Below are positions 2,915 through 23,443 of a stretch of 27,990 nt of DNA, in pieces. A program made the position numbers and the translations under genes. Under the pieces are notes generated by a model. The model worked only from the letters and a program-made list of their open reading frames with translations. It was not told where the DNA came from and ran no database searches. The stretch is from a virus, in the IMG/VR virus record IMGVR_UViG_3300030110_000920, positions 15,205-43,194 of that record; one strand, given 5' to 3'. Each line of letters starts with the position of its first letter. Position 1 is the stretch's first letter.

Positions 2915-4391
2915 TTTATTACCTAATGTTGGAAATAATGCATCTAGTGCACAAAGTGTAGATAATACTATACCACAAATAGGTAATGATTTTAATAGCT
3001 TTACATCTAGTAATGCAACAAATTTTACAAGTGAAATAGAAGTTACGGGAACTGGATCAATATCATATTCAAGTTCATTATTAAATATTACAACTGGTGA
3101 TGATACTACTACTCAACAAAAATTAAATAATGGTATAACACTACAAGGTAATACTGTTGTACAAAATTGTGAATGGTCGCAGTCATCTTATGCATGTGGT
3201 AACAGAGGTATAGGTCAAGATAGCTATAGTACAAAAATACAAATATTAGATGATAATGGATCTGTTATATCAGAAACTAATCAGATAAGAAACAATGACG
3301 CAGGCTATGGATCTACTGCACATAAATATACAGATACATTAATATATAATAATACAGGTGCATATACATTTAATTGGCAATGGACAGGTATAGATGGTGA
3401 ATCTAGTCCTAGAAATTTAGGTGGTCCTAATTTACTAGGTGCAGATTTATTTATGACTTATGATAATACTATATTAGATGAAAGTATAACAGAAGAATTA
3501 ACTAATATAACAGAAGTCTTGACAAATATGTTAAATGAGGTTATAATAGAAGAAGAAGTAGAAATAAAAACACAACCAATTTTAACTGTAACAGCTACAC
3601 CTATGCTAACTAGAACACCAATAGCACCATCACAACCAGTTGCAAAAGCAACACCTATGATGGCTCCTACACCAGTTACTACACAACCTACTCAAACTAC
3701 TACACCGCCACCTTCAACAAATACCCCAGTACAAACTAAAACAGCACCTGCTGCCACTACAACAAGTACTACTACAACAACTGCTACTAAAAGTACATCA
3801 CAACAAACAACACAACAAGTAGCACAAAAATCAACAAGTAATACTCAAACTAAAGGTAATAAGAATGCTAAACCTAATGCTACTACAACGTCTTCAAGAA
3901 GCACAAAGAATACAAAAAATGAATCAAAAAAGGAGATCAGTAAGGAATCCAATAGCAAAACTGCTAAGACTACCACTGCTAAAAAAGAGGATAGTAGCAA
4001 GCAAGAAACTGTACAATCGAAAGAAACTACAGGAGAAAATAAGACAGCAAGTAGCGAAATACAATCACAATCAGGATCTATAGATTTACAAATGGCTAAA
4101 GTAGATAGTGATATTAAAGATATTAGTAAGAATTTAGAAGTTAAAAATATTATAAAATTAAAAGCTATGGTTAATAATGATATGATCACAGCTTATAATA
4201 TACCCTTTTATATAGGTAAAGATATATACATCGATCAATTAAATATATTTGATAAGCCTATATATCAAGATGTAAATTTGGGACAATATATATTAAATGA
4301 TCCAGTTGTTCAATCTAAAATAAAAATTATGGATATACAAAACAAAAAGCAAAAACTATTAAATGAAATAGAGGTATTAAAAAATGGGTAA
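2835..4391 (+). CDS. large exported protein with beta-rich head and Thr/Pro/Lys-rich stalk
   Basis: 518 residues. A signal peptide (1-20, cleavage near SSA-EE) precedes a beta-rich globular region (about 21-240; Cys112 and Cys120; Trp/Asn/Gly-rich). Then come a Pro/Thr/Gln stalk (about 245-335), a Ser/Thr/Lys stretch (335-410) and a C-terminal helical domain (about 415-518). I recognise the N-terminal region as a widespread marine phage protein of unassigned function; its stalk is often acidic, whereas here it is neutral to basic. An extracellular or periplasmic adhesin or structural role is plausible. A perfect promoter-like sequence lies inside it at 3519-3547. Confidence 0.8.
   Translation: MRCTLLVSLLMILIHTISSAEEITTGNLLPNVGNNASSAQSVDNTIPQIGNDFNSFTSSNATNFTSEIEVTGTGSISYSSSLLNITTGDDTTTQQKLNNGITLQGNTVVQNCEWSQSSYACGNRGIGQDSYSTKIQILDDNGSVISETNQIRNNDAGYGSTAHKYTDTLIYNNTGAYTFNWQWTGIDGESSPRNLGGPNLLGADLFMTYDNTILDESITEELTNITEVLTNMLNEVIIEEEVEIKTQPILTVTATPMLTRTPIAPSQPVAKATPMMAPTPVTTQPTQTTTPPPSTNTPVQTKTAPAATTTSTTTTTATKSTSQQTTQQVAQKSTSNTQTKGNKNAKPNATTTSSRSTKNTKNESKKEISKESNSKTAKTTTAKKEDSSKQETVQSKETTGENKTASSEIQSQSGSIDLQMAKVDSDIKDISKNLEVKNIIKLKAMVNNDMITAYNIPFYIGKDIYIDQLNIFDKPIYQDVNLGQYILNDPVVQSKIKIMDIQNKKQKLLNEIEVLKNG
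3519..3547 (+). promoter_or_regulatory. perfect sigma70-like promoter inside the 518-residue gene
   Basis: TTGACA (3519-3524), a 17-base spacer and TATAAT (3542-3547) match the bacterial consensus exactly. It lies inside coding sequence, so it may be fortuitous, but from base composition an exact match is expected well under once per window. It would serve the downstream small-gene block ending at the 6.6 kb terminator. Confidence 0.4.
3590..4080 (+). repeat. low-complexity ACA/ACT-rich stretch encoding the Thr/Pro/Gln/Lys stalk
   Basis: Strongly biased codons (aca, act, caa, aaa) with runs of Thr (for example TTTTTT near residue 314-319). The repeats are imperfect rather than tandem. Likely to vary in length between relatives. 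Confidence 0.7.
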
Positions 4392-7517: not shown

Positions 7518-7803
7518 TGCTAACCTCTTTAAGTAATCTATTAAGATACCATTGAGCCTTTTGTAAATCCTCTAATGGTTCTCCTTTAAATTTATATCTT
7601 GCAACATACTTCAAGACATTACCTTTAAGATATCCATGATACTCATCACCTTCCATAGCATCACGAATGACATCTATAGTTTCTTTTTTACCATGCATAT
7701 AGTGTGAAGGAGAGTGCACATTATCATGCTTTCTCTCATTCTCATATGACATATCGTGACCATGGTCTATCTTATTTGTATATGTACGCTTATCTTTTAC
7801 CAT
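7504..7803 (-). CDS. DUF3310 domain protein
   Basis: 99 residues. The domain spans about 30-92: SPSHYMHGKKETIDVI (31-46), HGYLKGNVLKYVARYKFKG (56-74) and LEDLQKAQWYL (77-87). These are the hallmarks of DUF3310 (PxHY...GNvxKYvxRyxxK...EDLxKAxWYL), a family common in tailed-phage early regions that includes the SaV-like protein linked to AbiV sensitivity; biochemical role unclear. TAAGGAGGG ribosome site before ATG 7803. An internal Met18 is a weaker start. Confidence 0.88.
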   Translation of the reverse strand: MVKDKRTYTNKIDHGHDMSYENERKHDNVHSPSHYMHGKKETIDVIRDAMEGDEYHGYLKGNVLKYVARYKFKGEPLEDLQKAQWYLNRLLKEVSNGTS

Positions 7804-14742: not shown

Positions 14743-15529
14743 AAAATATATTCCTTATCTGTTCTGTGTTGTAGTATTTAAGATCATCTTCTAAAGGTTT
14801 AACTATTACATTTTCAAATCCAGAGGATCTTAAATCTTTTGCCATGTCGTATGCTTTTGTTGTAGCGTCTCTATCTAAACATACATATAAATTTTTATAT
14901 GGTTTTATATGATCCATATGTGTACGTTTTAATTTAGTACCCATTATAGATATACCAGTTAATATATTAGATACAGCACAAGCAGATGGACAATCTTCTA
15001 CTATAACTGCATCTTCACATACACCACATTTAAATGGAATATCTTTATTGCCATACATAAACCATTTTGGAAATTCATTTTTATTTAATGCTCTACCCAC
15101 TGCACCAACTATTTTATGTGTGTCTCTATTTTTAATTAAGAATACAACTCTATCTTGTTTAACATCATATTTAAAATCTGCTCTACCCCAAGACCAAGAC
15201 TCCCAACAATTATTATTAGCTAACCAATGCATAGCTTTGTTATTAGAATATATTGATTGAAAACTATCTGGTAATTCAAAGTCTCTGTCTTCTATATGTA
15301 AATCTTTATTACCTTGAAAAACTTTTTGTACATACTGCATATCTTTTTCTCCTTCTTTTTTTCCTCGTGCTTTACAAGATGCATGAAAACAATACCAATA
15401 TATATTATTATTTGTAGTGTCTATTGATAATGTATTTTTATTATTACAAAATGGACAATCTATTCTTGTCTGTATGTCTTTTGCAAGATACAAACTTTGT
15501 ATAACATTTAATTGTTGTTTATAATTCAA
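14735..15529 (-). CDS. DNA primase with zinc finger and TOPRIM domain
   Basis: 264 residues. An N-terminal zinc-binding region (Cys25, Cys28, Cys47, Cys52) recognises template; TOPRIM follows with VIVEDCPSA (Glu178) and CLDRDA (Asp219, Asp221). It makes RNA primers for polymerase with the helicase two genes downstream. The only workable start is TTG 15529, which overlaps the upstream stop as TTGA; the next Met is residue 64, beyond the zinc finger. Confidence 0.9.
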   Translation of the reverse strand: MNYKQQLNVIQSLYLAKDIQTRIDCPFCNNKNTLSIDTTNNNIYWYCFHASCKARGKKEGEKDMQYVQKVFQGNKDLHIEDRDFELPDSFQSIYSNNKAMHWLANNNCWESWSWGRADFKYDVKQDRVVFLIKNRDTHKIVGAVGRALNKNEFPKWFMYGNKDIPFKCGVCEDAVIVEDCPSACAVSNILTGISIMGTKLKRTHMDHIKPYKNLYVCLDRDATTKAYDMAKDLRSSGFENVIVKPLEDDLKYYNTEQIRNIFYE

Positions 15530-17840: not shown

Positions 17841-18011
17841 TTATGCAGTATCGTCTCTTCCATACTTTTTTCTACCTGATAGATATTCTAAATTCTCTTT
17901 TCGTTTTCTTTCTTTTTCTATTTTGTTAATAATATAATAGGCAATGATTGCCCCAATCAATAGGGCAACCATATTAAATAAATACATACCTAGTCCATGA
18001 TAGAACGTCAT
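17841..18011 (-). CDS. 56-residue membrane protein with basic tail
   Basis: ATG 18011 overlaps the upstream stop (ATGA). Hydrophobic segment at 9-29, then a highly basic tail (EKERKRKENLEYLSGRKKYGRDD). Positive-inside rule places the tail in the cytoplasm. Function unknown. Confidence 0.65.
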   Translation of the reverse strand: MTFYHGLGMYLFNMVALLIGAIIAYYIINKIEKERKRKENLEYLSGRKKYGRDDTA

Positions 18012-18952
18012 GCTATTTTTCTCCCAAGATTACCTAGGGCTTTGTGATAGTAATATACAAAGTGATCACTAGCTACATAGTTTTCTATCTCTGAGTCTCT
18101 CATTACATTACTCTTGATAGAGTCCATAGTACTATTGTCTATTCTGTATTCTTTGCTATCTTTCTTACCAATCTTAATTGCTCTTTTATTATGAGAACTA
18201 TAATTAGTTAAGGCATTGTATACATCATACAAAGTAGATTTATGCATATCTGTTTCTAATACTTGTTTTAATAAATTGTATTTATTATCAGAACCATTAG
18301 AAAACTTTGTAAATATACTATCTACTTCATTAGCTGATAATGGTAAACTATTATACACTTCAAATGTATCTTGCATCTTTTCAAATGTAAGACCAATGTG
18401 TTGTAGTCTTAAAAAAGAATCATCAACATCAAAATGTGTTGTGTGTTTCTTAATTGTTTCACCTAAACTATCAAATGATTTCATGCCATTCTGACAAACT
18501 AATCTTAGAAACATTGCTCTAATCTTGTATACTATAGTTGCGTCATAACTAGATACAACTTCAATACCAAACTTTAGTTTATCTTTTGGATTAGTTCTCA
18601 TTGCGTGTGGACTAAATTTACTATTATCATTAAACAATATTCTTAGTCTAAGATAATTTAGATCAGGGTGTACATTAAATTGTATAGATGTATTTGCTAA
18701 TCCAATACCATACTTTAATAATGCATCTGATAATCCATTTAGTATTTTAGCATAAGGCACTAGTTGATAATTAGATCCATGCAAATGTATTGCACGTTTA
18801 TTATCTGTATCTACTACAGCCCAAGCAGGTTTATTTAATTTAAAAAGAACTGGATCACTAACATAATGTATTTGTTGTAAGTCAACTTCAGTTGTTGCTC
18901 TGTCATACATGTCTGAGTGATTGTCTTTTAATGTCTTTATAAGTGTAGACAT
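18008..18952 (-). CDS. DUF932-like early protein
   Basis: 314 residues. Matches the general pattern of phage/plasmid DUF932 proteins: an N-terminal AWAVVDTDNKRAIHLHGSNYQLVPY region (43-67), a central RLVCQNGM (150-157, where DUF932 has VRVVCxNxL), and a C-terminal domain with NALTNYSSHNKRA. The function of DUF932 is not established. The gene has its own consensus promoter and a 250-base structured leader, suggesting high or controlled early expression. GGAGG ribosome site before ATG 18952. Confidence 0.72.
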   Translation of the reverse strand: MSTLIKTLKDNHSDMYDRATTEVDLQQIHYVSDPVLFKLNKPAWAVVDTDNKRAIHLHGSNYQLVPYAKILNGLSDALLKYGIGLANTSIQFNVHPDLNYLRLRILFNDNSKFSPHAMRTNPKDKLKFGIEVVSSYDATIVYKIRAMFLRLVCQNGMKSFDSLGETIKKHTTHFDVDDSFLRLQHIGLTFEKMQDTFEVYNSLPLSANEVDSIFTKFSNGSDNKYNLLKQVLETDMHKSTLYDVYNALTNYSSHNKRAIKIGKKDSKEYRIDNSTMDSIKSNVMRDSEIENYVASDHFVYYYHKALGNLGRKIA

Positions 18953-18959
18953 ATTTATC

Positions 18960-19206
18960 CTCCATTGTTGGTTGGTTTATTTGTGGGTTAGCAACTCTCT
19001 AGAGTTTCCTCCACCCATAGCTATTGGGGCGTTACTAACCCTTGATCAGCGAGACCGAGCAGTTACAGATGGTAAACAACCCAAATCTTTCTCCACTCTG
19101 GACATCGTTTAACAATAGTCAGTTGCCCGCTAATCTCAGTACTAAATGTCCAGCGTGTAACTATAGACACAGCTGACGCAAACGCTTTGCAAAACGTGTA
19201 CTGATT
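18960..19206 (-). promoter_or_regulatory. long, GC-enriched, structured 5' leader of the DUF932-like gene
   Basis: No good ORF lies between the promoter start (about 19206) and ATG 18952. Hand count of 18961-19200 gives about 45% GC against roughly 25-30% in nearby genes. In the minus-strand RNA an 8-base stem (19153-19146 with 19105-19098) encloses 40 bases. Just before the ribosome site an 11-base stem with one wobble (19041-19031 with 18995-18985) encloses 35 bases, including a GAG-GAAA-CTC hairpin (19011-19002). It could be a riboswitch-like leader, a protein-binding site or a separate small RNA; I do not recognise a known class. Confidence 0.5.
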
Positions 19207-19212
19207 AAATAC

Positions 19213-19241
19213 TGTATATCACAGTTATATGATTATGTCAA
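19213..19241 (-). promoter_or_regulatory. consensus promoter for the DUF932-like gene
   Basis: Minus strand: TTGACA (19241-19236), 17-base spacer ending TGA, TATACA (19218-19213). The -35 overlaps the end of the upstream 154-residue gene, whose stop (19235-19233) falls in the spacer. Confidence 0.8.
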
Positions 19242-19697
19242 ATTATTTTTTTGCTCGAAGTCTTCAAAGTTTTTAGCATAAAGATTTTTGATTAGTGTTC
19301 TTGTGGCTTTTGGAAACTCAACTTTGAATGAGTCTGAATCGGCTAAGTAATTGAATTTTAAGCATTTTTTGCCGATCAATAAATATCTTAGTCTCTGGTT
19401 CATTGGTACATTTCTAAACTTAAATCCTTCTCTTATGTCTAGATCATTAACTAACATATTAAGTTCTGGTCTAGTAGTTCTCTTACCACCTTTTTTATAC
19501 AACCTCTTACCAGTTGCACCATCTATTTGAAACTTTCTATCTTTGGTATCAAATCGCATTACTCTTTTATCACCAACGATCTCTAATCTTTTTGGTTTCT
19601 TATAAAAGAATGCACGACCTTTTTTAGATTTATACTTGTCTATTTCATTATCAACAAAGATATGAAGTTGTTGTTTTGTTATGTGTATTGTTTTCAT
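19233..19697 (-). CDS. 154-residue basic early protein, not recognised
   Basis: Strongly basic (many K and R), mixed alpha/beta: KTIHITKQQLHIFVDNEIDKY at the start, a basic beta-rich middle (about 30-80, KKGGKRTTRPELN) and RLRYLLIGKKCLKFNYL at about 102-118. It could bind nucleic acid. It has a ribosome site (AGGAGC) and a long non-coding region upstream. Its stop codon overlaps the promoter of the next gene. Confidence 0.72.
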   Translation of the reverse strand: MKTIHITKQQLHIFVDNEIDKYKSKKGRAFFYKKPKRLEIVGDKRVMRFDTKDRKFQIDGATGKRLYKKGGKRTTRPELNMLVNDLDIREGFKFRNVPMNQRLRYLLIGKKCLKFNYLADSDSFKVEFPKATRTLIKNLYAKNFEDFEQKNNLT

Positions 19698-20045
19698 TGT
19701 TGCTCCTATTATGTTTGATTATTTTTTTAGGGCGGTGAAGTACTCGGTTGGTTTCCCACGATCCCCATACATACCGCCCGTATCTAAATTGTTAGTCGAT
19801 CATTATACAAGTTGTCTATGTAGTTCCTTACATTAAAGGGGAGATCACCCCATCAACTTGTGGTTCGTTAGAAAAACAAAAAAGATTTCGGGGTGAGTAT
19901 GGATAATCCAATAGTTACTATATCCAAGTCTGTACAGATGTAATACCCACCCCCCTTCAATATGAACTATCGCCACAGTTTATTTACGCCAGTTACTTAT
20001 CTCGCTAAAGACTTTCGTCTGGTAAATTATACACAGTCGTATGGA
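19698..20045 (-). promoter_or_regulatory. non-coding, structure-rich leader of the 154-residue gene
   Basis: About 350 bases without a plausible gene; 19741-20040 is about 40% GC by hand count. Read as minus-strand RNA it holds three modules. (i) An 11-base stem, one wobble (19953-19943 with 19900-19890), followed by CTTTTTTGTTTTT, possibly an attenuator. (ii) A three-way junction: 8-base stem 19861-19854/19814-19807 enclosing stems 19851-19848/19841-19838 and 19833-19829/19822-19818. (iii) A 7-base GGGCGGT/ACCGCCC stem (19779-19773/19736-19730) containing a UGG-GAAA-CCA hairpin (19758-19749). Not a class I know. Confidence 0.5.
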
Positions 20046-20084: not shown

Positions 20085-20113
20085 TTAATATCAGATTATT
20101 TGATTGATGTCAA
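20085..20113 (-). promoter_or_regulatory. promoter overlapping the terminator, for the structured region and 154-residue gene
   Basis: Minus strand: TTGACA (20113-20108), 17-base spacer ending TGA, TATTAA (20090-20085). The predicted start (about 20078) is inside the 5' arm of the terminator, so RNA from this promoter lacks half the stem and should read through. Confidence 0.65.
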
Positions 20114-20786: not shown

Positions 20787-20797
20787 GTGCATTGACA
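20781..20797. repeat. inverted repeat TGTCAA-N5-TTGACA (operator-like)
   Basis: Two -35 hexamers face each other across 5 bases, a 6-base palindrome arm each. The same spacing recurs in near-identical form at 20609-20625 (TGTCA-N6-TGACA). It could be a repressor site that blocks both -35 elements. Confidence 0.5.
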
Positions 20798-20820
20798 TAG
20801 CCCTTGTAATATTATACAAG
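20792..20820 (+). promoter_or_regulatory. weak rightward promoter candidate
   Basis: TTGACA (20792-20797) followed at 17 bases by TACAAG (20815-20820), or at 15 bases by TATACA (20813-20818). Divergent to the leftward promoter. It would transcribe the structured region 20821-21000. Confidence 0.35.
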
Positions 20821-21000
20821 TATATCTGTACACGCACATATTGGGAAAATCAGTATAGCTTAACCATCTGTGCAGGGAGTAGGTCGTAAATCCTAGGCGA
20901 TACCTATTGTAAGGTTTCTGGCAAGAAACCATTTGAACTATAGTGTTGGTTGCAGTTAGTGCATAATGATTCAGTAAGTAATTCCCCAACACAATACCCG
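20815..21000 (+). ncRNA. candidate structured RNA at the strand switch
   Basis: 180 bases at about 40% GC with no convincing gene. Successive stems: 20834-20838/20869-20873; 20880-20886/20898-20906 (7 pairs, two-base bulge); 20913-20919/20924-20930 (GGTTTCT/AGAAACC, 4-base loop); 20943-20949/20986-20992 (GTGTTGG/CCAACAC). The strand is uncertain because stems work on both; plus is favoured by the upstream TTGACA. It could equally be a protein-binding DNA region. Part of the 330-base gap between the genes at 20723 and 21058. Confidence 0.4.
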
Positions 21001-21001
21001 C

Positions 21002-21030
21002 TTGACACCACTCACCACAAATGCTATAAA
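21002..21030 (+). promoter_or_regulatory. rightward early promoter
   Basis: TTGACA (21002-21007), 17-base spacer ending TGC (extended -10), TATAAA (21025-21030). Start near 21037; drives the 85-residue gene at 21058. Confidence 0.75.
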
Positions 21031-21057
21031 TAGATAATCAATCAATGGAGAACATAT

Positions 21058-22957: not shown

Positions 22958-22973
22958 AAACATGGTTAACTTT

Positions 22974-23007
22974 AGGGGGTCTTAGGTACAAAAACCTATG
23001 ATCCCCT
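22974..23007 (+). repeat. large hairpin after the 345-residue operon
   Basis: 14-base arms (22974-22987 with 22994-23007) with one mismatch and one G-T pair around a 6-base loop ACAAAA. No T-tract follows, so it is a terminator only if rho or another factor helps; it may be a packaging or processing signal. Confidence 0.65.
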
Positions 23008-23262
23008 GAGTGTTTCTGGGTGGTAACTATAGGTTGCATTAAATTTTTTTTAATTTTGGCATGGGGTAAACCCCCTACAACCCCCAATAATGAACTACGT
23101 ACTTAAATTTTCCCATATATTTGTACCAAAAATTTTCTAGGTACACCCTATGCGTGTGCCAGGGGGGTAGTCCTATATACTATATATGCAGAAGCCAGAA
23201 AATCCCCAAAGTCTATGTTAACTACACTGGGGGCTATATTCTAGGGCTAAATATTCCGACAA

Positions 23263-23276
23263 TATTCCTAGGAATA
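23263..23276. repeat. perfect 14-base palindrome
   Basis: TATTCCTAGGAATA, centred on CCTAGG. Possible binding or cleavage site of a dimeric protein, within the non-coding region before the terminase genes. Confidence 0.75.
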
Positions 23277-23414
23277 CCCTAAGTACCCACCTGTAAATAT
23301 ACGATAGCTATAGATATATAGGCTCCCCTGGGGGTTCCTATGAACATTATACACCCCACACACAATTTTGTCTATGTCTATAGTGTCGCAGACTATAATA
23401 TGTAAAAATAAAAC

Positions 23415-23443
23415 TTGACAAAATTGATATTAACCCCTATAAT
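23415..23443 (+). promoter_or_regulatory. perfect consensus promoter for the terminase/portal operon
   Basis: TTGACA (23415-23420), 17-base spacer, TATAAT (23438-23443). Start near 23450, 78 bases before ATG 23528. The long rightward operon has no other promoter in view before the portal. Confidence 0.85.

Follow-up and report, generated by a model that had tools for sequence, protein, structure and literature searches.

Results

Genes and features of the locus

The window, by which we mean the whole stretch of 27,990 nucleotides of viral DNA analysed here (positions 15,205 to 43,194 of IMG/VR record IMGVR_UViG_3300030110_000920), carries on its minus strand a gene for a DUF932 protein preceded by a promoter and a non-coding interval, slot 1, and upstream of this a gene for a 154-aa protein preceded by a second slot (slot 2, 20113-19698). 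The features around slot 1, in the direction of transcription, are:

19233..19697, minus strand: gene for the 154-aa protein, between slots 1 and 2; its relatives follow slot 2
19213..19241, minus strand: slot 1 promoter read from the sequence, -35 TTGACA (19241-19236), 17-nt spacer, -10 TATACA (19218-19213)
19136..19204, minus strand: module 1 ('A'), closing stem TCAGTAC/GTACTGA enclosing two hairpins, beginning at the predicted 5' end; from the fold (z -1.65 alone)
19044..19135, minus strand: module 2 ('W2'), closing stem GATTAGCGGG/CTCGCTGATC with a branched interior; from the fold (z -2.4)
18985..19041, minus strand: module 3 ('W3'), three-way junction with P1 GGGTTAGTAAC/GTTGCTAACCC, P2 with loop CAATAGCTAT, GAAA-capped P3 and conserved CTAGAGAG; from the fold and covarying relatives
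18953..18984, minus strand: A/C-rich, unstructured, constant spacer and ribosome site AATAAACCAACCAACAAYGGAGGATAAAT; near-identical in 20 relatives
18008..18952, minus strand: DUF932 protein gene (PF06067, E 5e-11), the first gene behind slot 1

The genes downstream form a replication module, with a DNA polymerase A (PF00476, E 2e-48), an adjoining DnaB-type helicase and a weak Toprim match; a match of the polymerase to the DnaJ central domain (26.3 bits) lies below the Pfam cut-off of 32.7. The 154-aa protein belongs to no Pfam or PHROG family and its AlphaFold model (pLDDT 80) has no significant match in the PDB, while the model of the DUF932 protein (pLDDT 49) was too poor for use. Slot 2 and the 154-aa family are common to the window phage and HTVC033P, a pelagiphage of the HMO-2011-type group. 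We assign the window phage to the pelagiphage branch of the HMO-2011-type phages, and by its resemblance to HTVC033P, an abundant cultured phage of SAR11 (PMC9038755), it is probably a SAR11 phage.

Slot 1 of the window

A preliminary description of this DNA had placed a consensus promoter about 250 non-coding bases before the DUF932 gene, with a GC-rich structured leader in between. The promoter was recovered as TTGACA-17-TATACA; its -35 overlaps the final codons of the 154-aa gene, and its predicted +1, at about 19206, lies some 250 nt upstream of the start codon at 18952. The GC content, put at about 45%, was also estimated correctly, being 44.7% over the 237 nt of 18970-19206 and 31.8% in the whole window. 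A scan with 2776 sliding 237-nt windows gave only 1 value as high, so that this is the most GC-rich segment of its length in the window. The interval is non-coding, and a search for a conserved ORF across it found none; the length and content of the slot vary completely among relatives. The opinion that no known RNA class fits holds as well: cmscan with 4227 Rfam families gave no match in the window at the gathering threshold, the best sub-threshold match near slot 1 was a togavirus element with 20 of 120 bits, relaxed thresholds brought nothing credible in the interval, and 17 related loci had no match at the gathering threshold. A tRNA search of the interval found none.

The minus (transcribed) strand of slot 1 folds with a z of -2.80, none of 200 shuffles being as good, against -0.83 for the plus strand, and its best fold consists of three closed domains in tandem, modules 1, 2 and 3. 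The proposed leader thus stands as a non-coding RNA that folds on the transcribed strand, but it is made of three independent modules in a hypervariable slot and is not one RNA. Both ends of the slot are constant, the promoter on one side and an A/C-rich ribosome-site segment on the other, and hairpin-closed RNA modules lie between them. The three modules show no relatedness to one another. In the window, slot 1 has no intrinsic terminator or attenuator, as there is no T-run and ACAAATAAACC stands directly after module 3. Module 1 has a 98.7% identical copy, found in the related locus L001 only, and module 2 has no relative among the fetched loci; because no diverged relatives exist, the folds of both come from energy calculations alone. 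The 8-base stem CTGGACAT/ATGTCCAG noticed earlier (19153-19146/19105-19098) is present as written, with perfect pairing. It is, however, unsupported: one arm lies in module 1 and the other in module 2, it is incompatible with the best fold, and L001 does not have it. As L001 keeps module 1 without the partner sequence, the stem is probably due to chance.

Slot 1 among relatives

A search of viral contigs with the DUF932 protein yielded 25 loci (numbered with the prefix L, as are all contigs below). In 22 relatives whose DUF932 proteins are 73-95% identical over full-length matches, slot 1 holds from none to three different modules between borders that are nearly constant, the promoter on one side and AATAAACCAACCAACAAYGGAGGATAAATATG on the other. 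It may contain a 41-nt hairpin with a T-run (X), alone or with a further module, it may contain three modules, as it does in the window and L001, or it may have no module at all, and it turns over much faster than the DUF932 gene: L011 and L013 have DUF932 genes 99.1% identical, yet one of them has a 102-nt extra module, and the window and L001 (DUF932 95.4% identical) have module 1 in common and nothing after it. In L004, L007, L008 and L012 both promoter and leader are absent and the two genes are joined directly, which makes the slot dispensable. Module exchange, the second slot and these module-less relatives are not visible from the window alone.

Wherever a promoter could be scored (20 DUF932 leaders), the -35/-10 spacing is 17; in these leaders, for which +1 is predicted, the first paired base lies 1-8 nt past the -10, and in most of them the last stem is 18-21 nt from the ribosome site. 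A T-run follows the stem in about half of the slot-1 leaders of relatives, as it does in hairpin H of slot 2 (see below). Over 14 distinct slot 1 sequences the median fold z was -4.2, compared with -0.56 for 70 length-matched coding segments (p = 4e-7); the segments of L005, L006 and L020 fold weakly (z -0.6 to -1.4). Distant DUF932 genes (53-57% identity) mostly keep the plan: the promoter is followed at the predicted +1 by a short hairpin and T-run, then by the ribosome site and the gene. Their hairpin shows 4 pairs with compensatory double changes among 4 distinct sequences, 100% paired. Upstream of DUF932 in L073-L075, the tip of the leader hairpin carries a multibranched insert of well over 100 nt; L079/L080 have the form without this insert, with a compensated pair in the stem.

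A single conserved structured leader specific to the DUF932 gene, either a riboswitch or a protein-binding attenuator, was implied by the preliminary description, and a long structured 5' UTR behind a good promoter would agree with it. We consider this reading very improbable, being contradicted by the relatives with 73-95% identical DUF932 that have unrelated leaders or none, by the same modules serving other genes (see below) and by the absence of an Rfam match.

Module 3 belongs to a new RNA family

The 11-base stem and GAAA-capped hairpin described earlier (19041-19031/18995-18985) are real, the stem being the P1 (GGGTTAGTAAC/GTTGCTAACCC, 11 bp with one wobble) that closes module 3, whose fold has a z of -3.28. 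Exact matches to a 17-mer from its P2 hairpin were found in 13 contigs. Six of them, where the match was due to chance or lay in coding sequence, were left out; the other seven (L131, L132, L133, L135-L138) carry the same three-way junction, which makes eight phage contigs with the window. All share a P2 with loop CAATAGCTAT, a short P3 mostly GAAA-capped, and then CTAGAGA. As the P2 loop was the search key, its conservation follows from the search itself; that of CTAGAGA does not. The closing P1 has a different sequence in different phages. Double-change cells number 14 in seven sequences, where shuffles gave 5.5 (0 of 500 as high); the P2 and P3 pairs are kept in all of them (fully paired) and P1 covaries, its figure being reduced by a one-base bulge in two sequences. 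A covariance model (R1) gives window positions 19042-18983 a score of 73.4 bits (E 6e-19), the window copy being among its seven training sequences. The relatives had no Rfam matches. We therefore regard module 3 as a member of a new covarying three-way-junction RNA family, absent from Rfam. Of the two stems described earlier, covariation across phages confirms the one in module 3; the leader as a whole is not conserved in HMO-2011-type relatives.

The surroundings of this RNA differ from contig to contig. The L131 copy begins where transcription from a TTGACA-17-TATATA promoter is predicted to start. In L136 and L138 the module belongs to tandem arrays, as one of several units that have constant clamp ends CTTGAGCCCTG..CTGGGGTCAAG, with a conserved U-U mismatch, and differing interiors; and in L132, L133 and L135 the same core is enclosed by CTGATCCCTGG..CCTGGGATCAG. 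Clamp-like constant ends were seen in L132, L133, L135, L136 and L138 and are absent from the pelagiphage slots.

Some further observations concern these contigs. The P2 loop of module 3 (window 19026-19017, minus strand) contains the palindrome AUAGCUAU, which could permit loop-to-loop pairing of two copies. Tandem hairpin cassettes with imperfect constant clamp ends and differing interiors lie at L136 6640-7145 (minus strand), at L138 2065-2350 (plus strand), where they are upstream of a GP88-family gene, and in L135. The marine phage contig L138 also carries at 7674-7795 (minus strand) a match to the Rfam Flavobacterium-1 RNA (RF02976, 96.9 bits).

Slot 2 and hairpin H

Slot 2 follows the order of promoter, hairpin H at +1, variable module V1, a clamp GGGGGGT..ACCCC with hypervariable interior (C) and ribosome site. 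In the window it comprises:

20085..20113, minus strand: slot 2 promoter, TTGACA, 17 nt, TATTAA
20047..20082, minus strand: hairpin H, stem flush with the predicted +1, GAGA loop and T-run (terminator-like); conserved and covarying
19961..20045, minus strand: module V1, resembling a core common to V1 of L104/L125 and the C interior of L005 (window by eye; L104, L125 and L005 by BLAST)
19890..19955, minus strand: module C, clamp GGGGGGTGGG..CTCACCCC with hypervariable interior
19796..19871, minus strand: module B, with copies of 94-97% identity in other contigs; at its left border lies a copy of the H/V1 junction, TTTTTTGTTTT
19730..19779, minus strand: last module, GGGCGG..CCGCCC, enclosing the V1 module of L021/L022 (89%)

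A pattern scan for H returned 36 stretches; wherever the contig was long enough, such modules and a 154-aa family gene came after it. Most of its loops are of the GNRA type (GAGA; one GGAA). H is 100% paired in 17 sequences, whose 14 double-change cells compare with 5.2 for shuffles (0 of 500 as high); covariation counts such as these treat related sequences as independent, which the slid controls do not, and the slid controls fail. For the C clamp, 28 distinct arm pairs, in a register set by purine/pyrimidine run length only, are 87% paired over the six positions past the G-run and 57% when re-dealt (the maximum of 5000 being 70%). Counted from the table, the clamp cells contain 17 G-U and 4 A-C, and this indicates pairing in the transcribed strand.

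Slot 2 has its counterpart in the cultured pelagiphage HTVC033P, where positions 2070-2283, upstream of gp10, show the same arrangement; this genome has additional hairpins at 3128-3172 and 4258-4376. Because the slot is present in this cultured phage, its transcription, stability and function are directly testable. The paper describing HTVC033P makes no mention of non-coding or intergenic features. DUF932 was not found in this phage; the hairpin-closed module at 4258-4376 (L126) lies between gp12 and gp13, the place of DUF932 in other phages.

Modules are exchanged between slots, genes and phages

Module eps (75 nt) occurs in slot 1 of L005, in slot 2 of L009 and of L127/L128, and also in L136, which has a different array type. 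Between L005 and L136 its first hairpin keeps the loop ACGAA while 4 of 5 pairs are changed on both sides, and 6 compensated pairs are found in 4 sequences; we take eps, which behaves like module 3, to be a second new RNA family with covariation. The patterns of module 3 and eps had no matches in 84,980 bacterial and archaeal genomes. Similarly, L006 carries module L6 before DUF932, and in L101 this module stands before an unrelated 68-aa gene, at +1 of that gene's promoter, the two copies differing by one compensated pair and by the loop (GTAA to GTGA). Cores of 30-38 nt are common to V1 and C positions inside different outer stems, in what appear to be nested cargo swaps, and the copy of the H/V1 junction before module B in slot 2 of the window is best read as a trace of array recombination. 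In L010, a 111-nt module that recurs elsewhere in L020 lies between gene and promoter. Matches between slots numbered 153 on the same strand and 0 on the opposite strand. These sequence comparisons show modules appearing, disappearing and changing places among slots, genes and phages, with RNA pairing on the transcribed strand. The cultured phage genomes searched with the leader DNA and with DUF932 gave no match. IMG/VR contigs are fragments, and for this reason the absence of a module elsewhere is weak evidence.

REP and MITE hairpin elements and integron attC cassettes are likewise hairpin units that are gained, lost and arranged in tandem. The modules might then be selfish hairpin elements, non-autonomous mobile DNAs of the REP/MITE kind that settle in or beside other hairpins in non-coding DNA with no benefit for the phage. 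Nested and tandem insertions, the insert of L010 found again in L020, and the constant ends CTTGAGCCCTG..CTGGGGTCAAG around differing interiors in the arrays of L136 and L138 would be expected of them. Nevertheless, slot modules are strictly sense (153 against 0), their stems accept G-U and seldom A-C (17 against 4), as RNA pairing does, their position is tied to promoter and ribosome site, no recombinase is known to act on them, and the pelagiphage slots have no constant ends. We think this explanation unlikely.

Discussion

We propose that the interval before the DUF932 gene serves as a slot, close to the promoter, in which structured-RNA modules can be exchanged; heading an early/replication operon, it would act as a 5' stabiliser or attenuator and carry recombined cargoes, a reading in which our confidence is somewhat better than even. 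The sequences show the pairing and the exchange; the function we infer. A stem at the 5' end followed by an unpaired ribosome-loading stretch protects E. coli mRNAs (ompA, papA) from 5'-end-dependent decay (work cited in PMC3997798). The borders of the slots, a constant promoter and a constant ribosome site with a stem that begins at the predicted 5' end, have this layout. The modules would be transcribed as the 5' part of the DUF932-operon mRNA, where the terminal stem and the constant unpaired spacer may shield the message from 5'-end-dependent decay and keep the ribosome site open. Where a T-run follows the stem, the leader could attenuate transcription close to the promoter, with a short RNA as one product and some read-through mRNA as the other. 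With a stem at the predicted 5' end and an open spacer, unrelated modules can replace each other. Because any stable stem would serve the stabilising purpose, the slot tolerates replacement and may have become a landing site into which co-infecting phages recombine cargo modules. At least some of the cargoes, those with conserved loops and covarying stems, may have a function that depends on their own sequence; they would probably be small RNAs with a regulatory or decoy role.

A pure cis-stabiliser role leaves unexplained the conserved loops inside changing stems and the reuse of cargoes at unrelated genes; for such cargoes a specific function is likely, perhaps in trans. Each module might even be a small RNA 'gene' whose product, as a decoy, as antisense RNA or by binding a protein, is directed at the defences or regulators of the host or at competing phages; the leader position would then merely supply the promoter. 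This would account for the fast turnover, for the recurrence of one cargo before several genes and in several phages, for conserved loops kept within swapped stems, and for several modules that are a complete promoter-hairpin-T-run unit; phages can also escape type III toxin-antitoxin systems by mimic RNAs. However, no target is known, the modules are often arranged in tandem downstream of terminator-like hairpins and would then be made in smaller amounts, and every slot feeds straight into a gene at near-fixed spacing. We hold such accessory trans-acting RNAs to be possible and rather doubtful. The wider form of this idea, that marine phages of this group have a common pool of trans-acting structured RNA cassettes kept in fixed promoter-proximal slots and clamp arrays, is put forward just as tentatively; if true, the pool would be the RNA counterpart of swappable accessory genes, for conflict with hosts or rival phages.

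Whichever role the modules have, the slots can be compared with known systems. Lambdoid Q-dependent late leaders and the HK022 put RNAs have a promoter, a short structured leader and a terminator-like hairpin before an operon. The slots have the same layout, but no antiterminator was identified for them, their sequences are unconserved, and many slot-1 leaders, that of the window included, have no T-run. Like the stabilising stem-loops of ompA and papA (work cited in PMC3997798), the slots have a stem directly at the predicted 5' end, behind which the ribosome-loading region is unpaired; in contrast, the slot stem is replaced by unrelated, multi-branched, tandem modules common to genes and phages. 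Type III toxin-antitoxin systems (ToxIN, AbiF; PMC8860590, PMC12373285) also consist of a promoter, a structured RNA, sometimes a terminator-like hairpin, and then a protein gene. In the window, by contrast, there are no tandem repeats of one RNA unit, the downstream gene matches DUF932 only and not the ToxN/AbiF family, and it is the slot RNA that is hypervariable and the slot protein that is conserved. GOLLD and ROOL are, like the modules, structured non-coding RNAs of phages, but they are single large conserved RNAs, whereas the slot modules are interchangeable and of 40-110 nt (PMC12286853). We found no description of such slots in the open-access literature, and as far as the searched libraries go their organisation is new in kind.

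Phage mosaicism has been described for protein genes. Here, small structured RNAs behave likewise, with defined slots, sense orientation, fast turnover and reuse in different phages. The analysis has yielded at least two new RNA families with covariation, those of module 3 and eps; it also gives a promoter-proximal hairpin (H) that is conserved and covaries, and a rule by which others can be found.

Other non-coding features of this phage group were observed. At window 20632-20586 (minus strand) a terminator and a promoter are fused, the TTGACA -35 lying in the 3' arm of the terminator and the T-run forming the spacer before the -10. Such fusions, also present at L020 ~1862-1912, L101 upstream of 1267 (minus strand) and L126 ~1248-1290, recur at several gene borders of these phages. 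Just upstream, window 20723-20640 (minus strand) holds an unannotated ORF with a ribosome site for a 27-aa hydrophobic peptide, and similar tiny membrane peptides occupy the same place in L020 and L101. Finally, there are two GC-rich non-coding islands: one between divergent genes at window 20790-21050, 73-90% conserved in L001 and L006 and a candidate structured region, and one at 22960-23440 (plus strand), with many G/C-run hairpins and about 80% conserved in several relatives.
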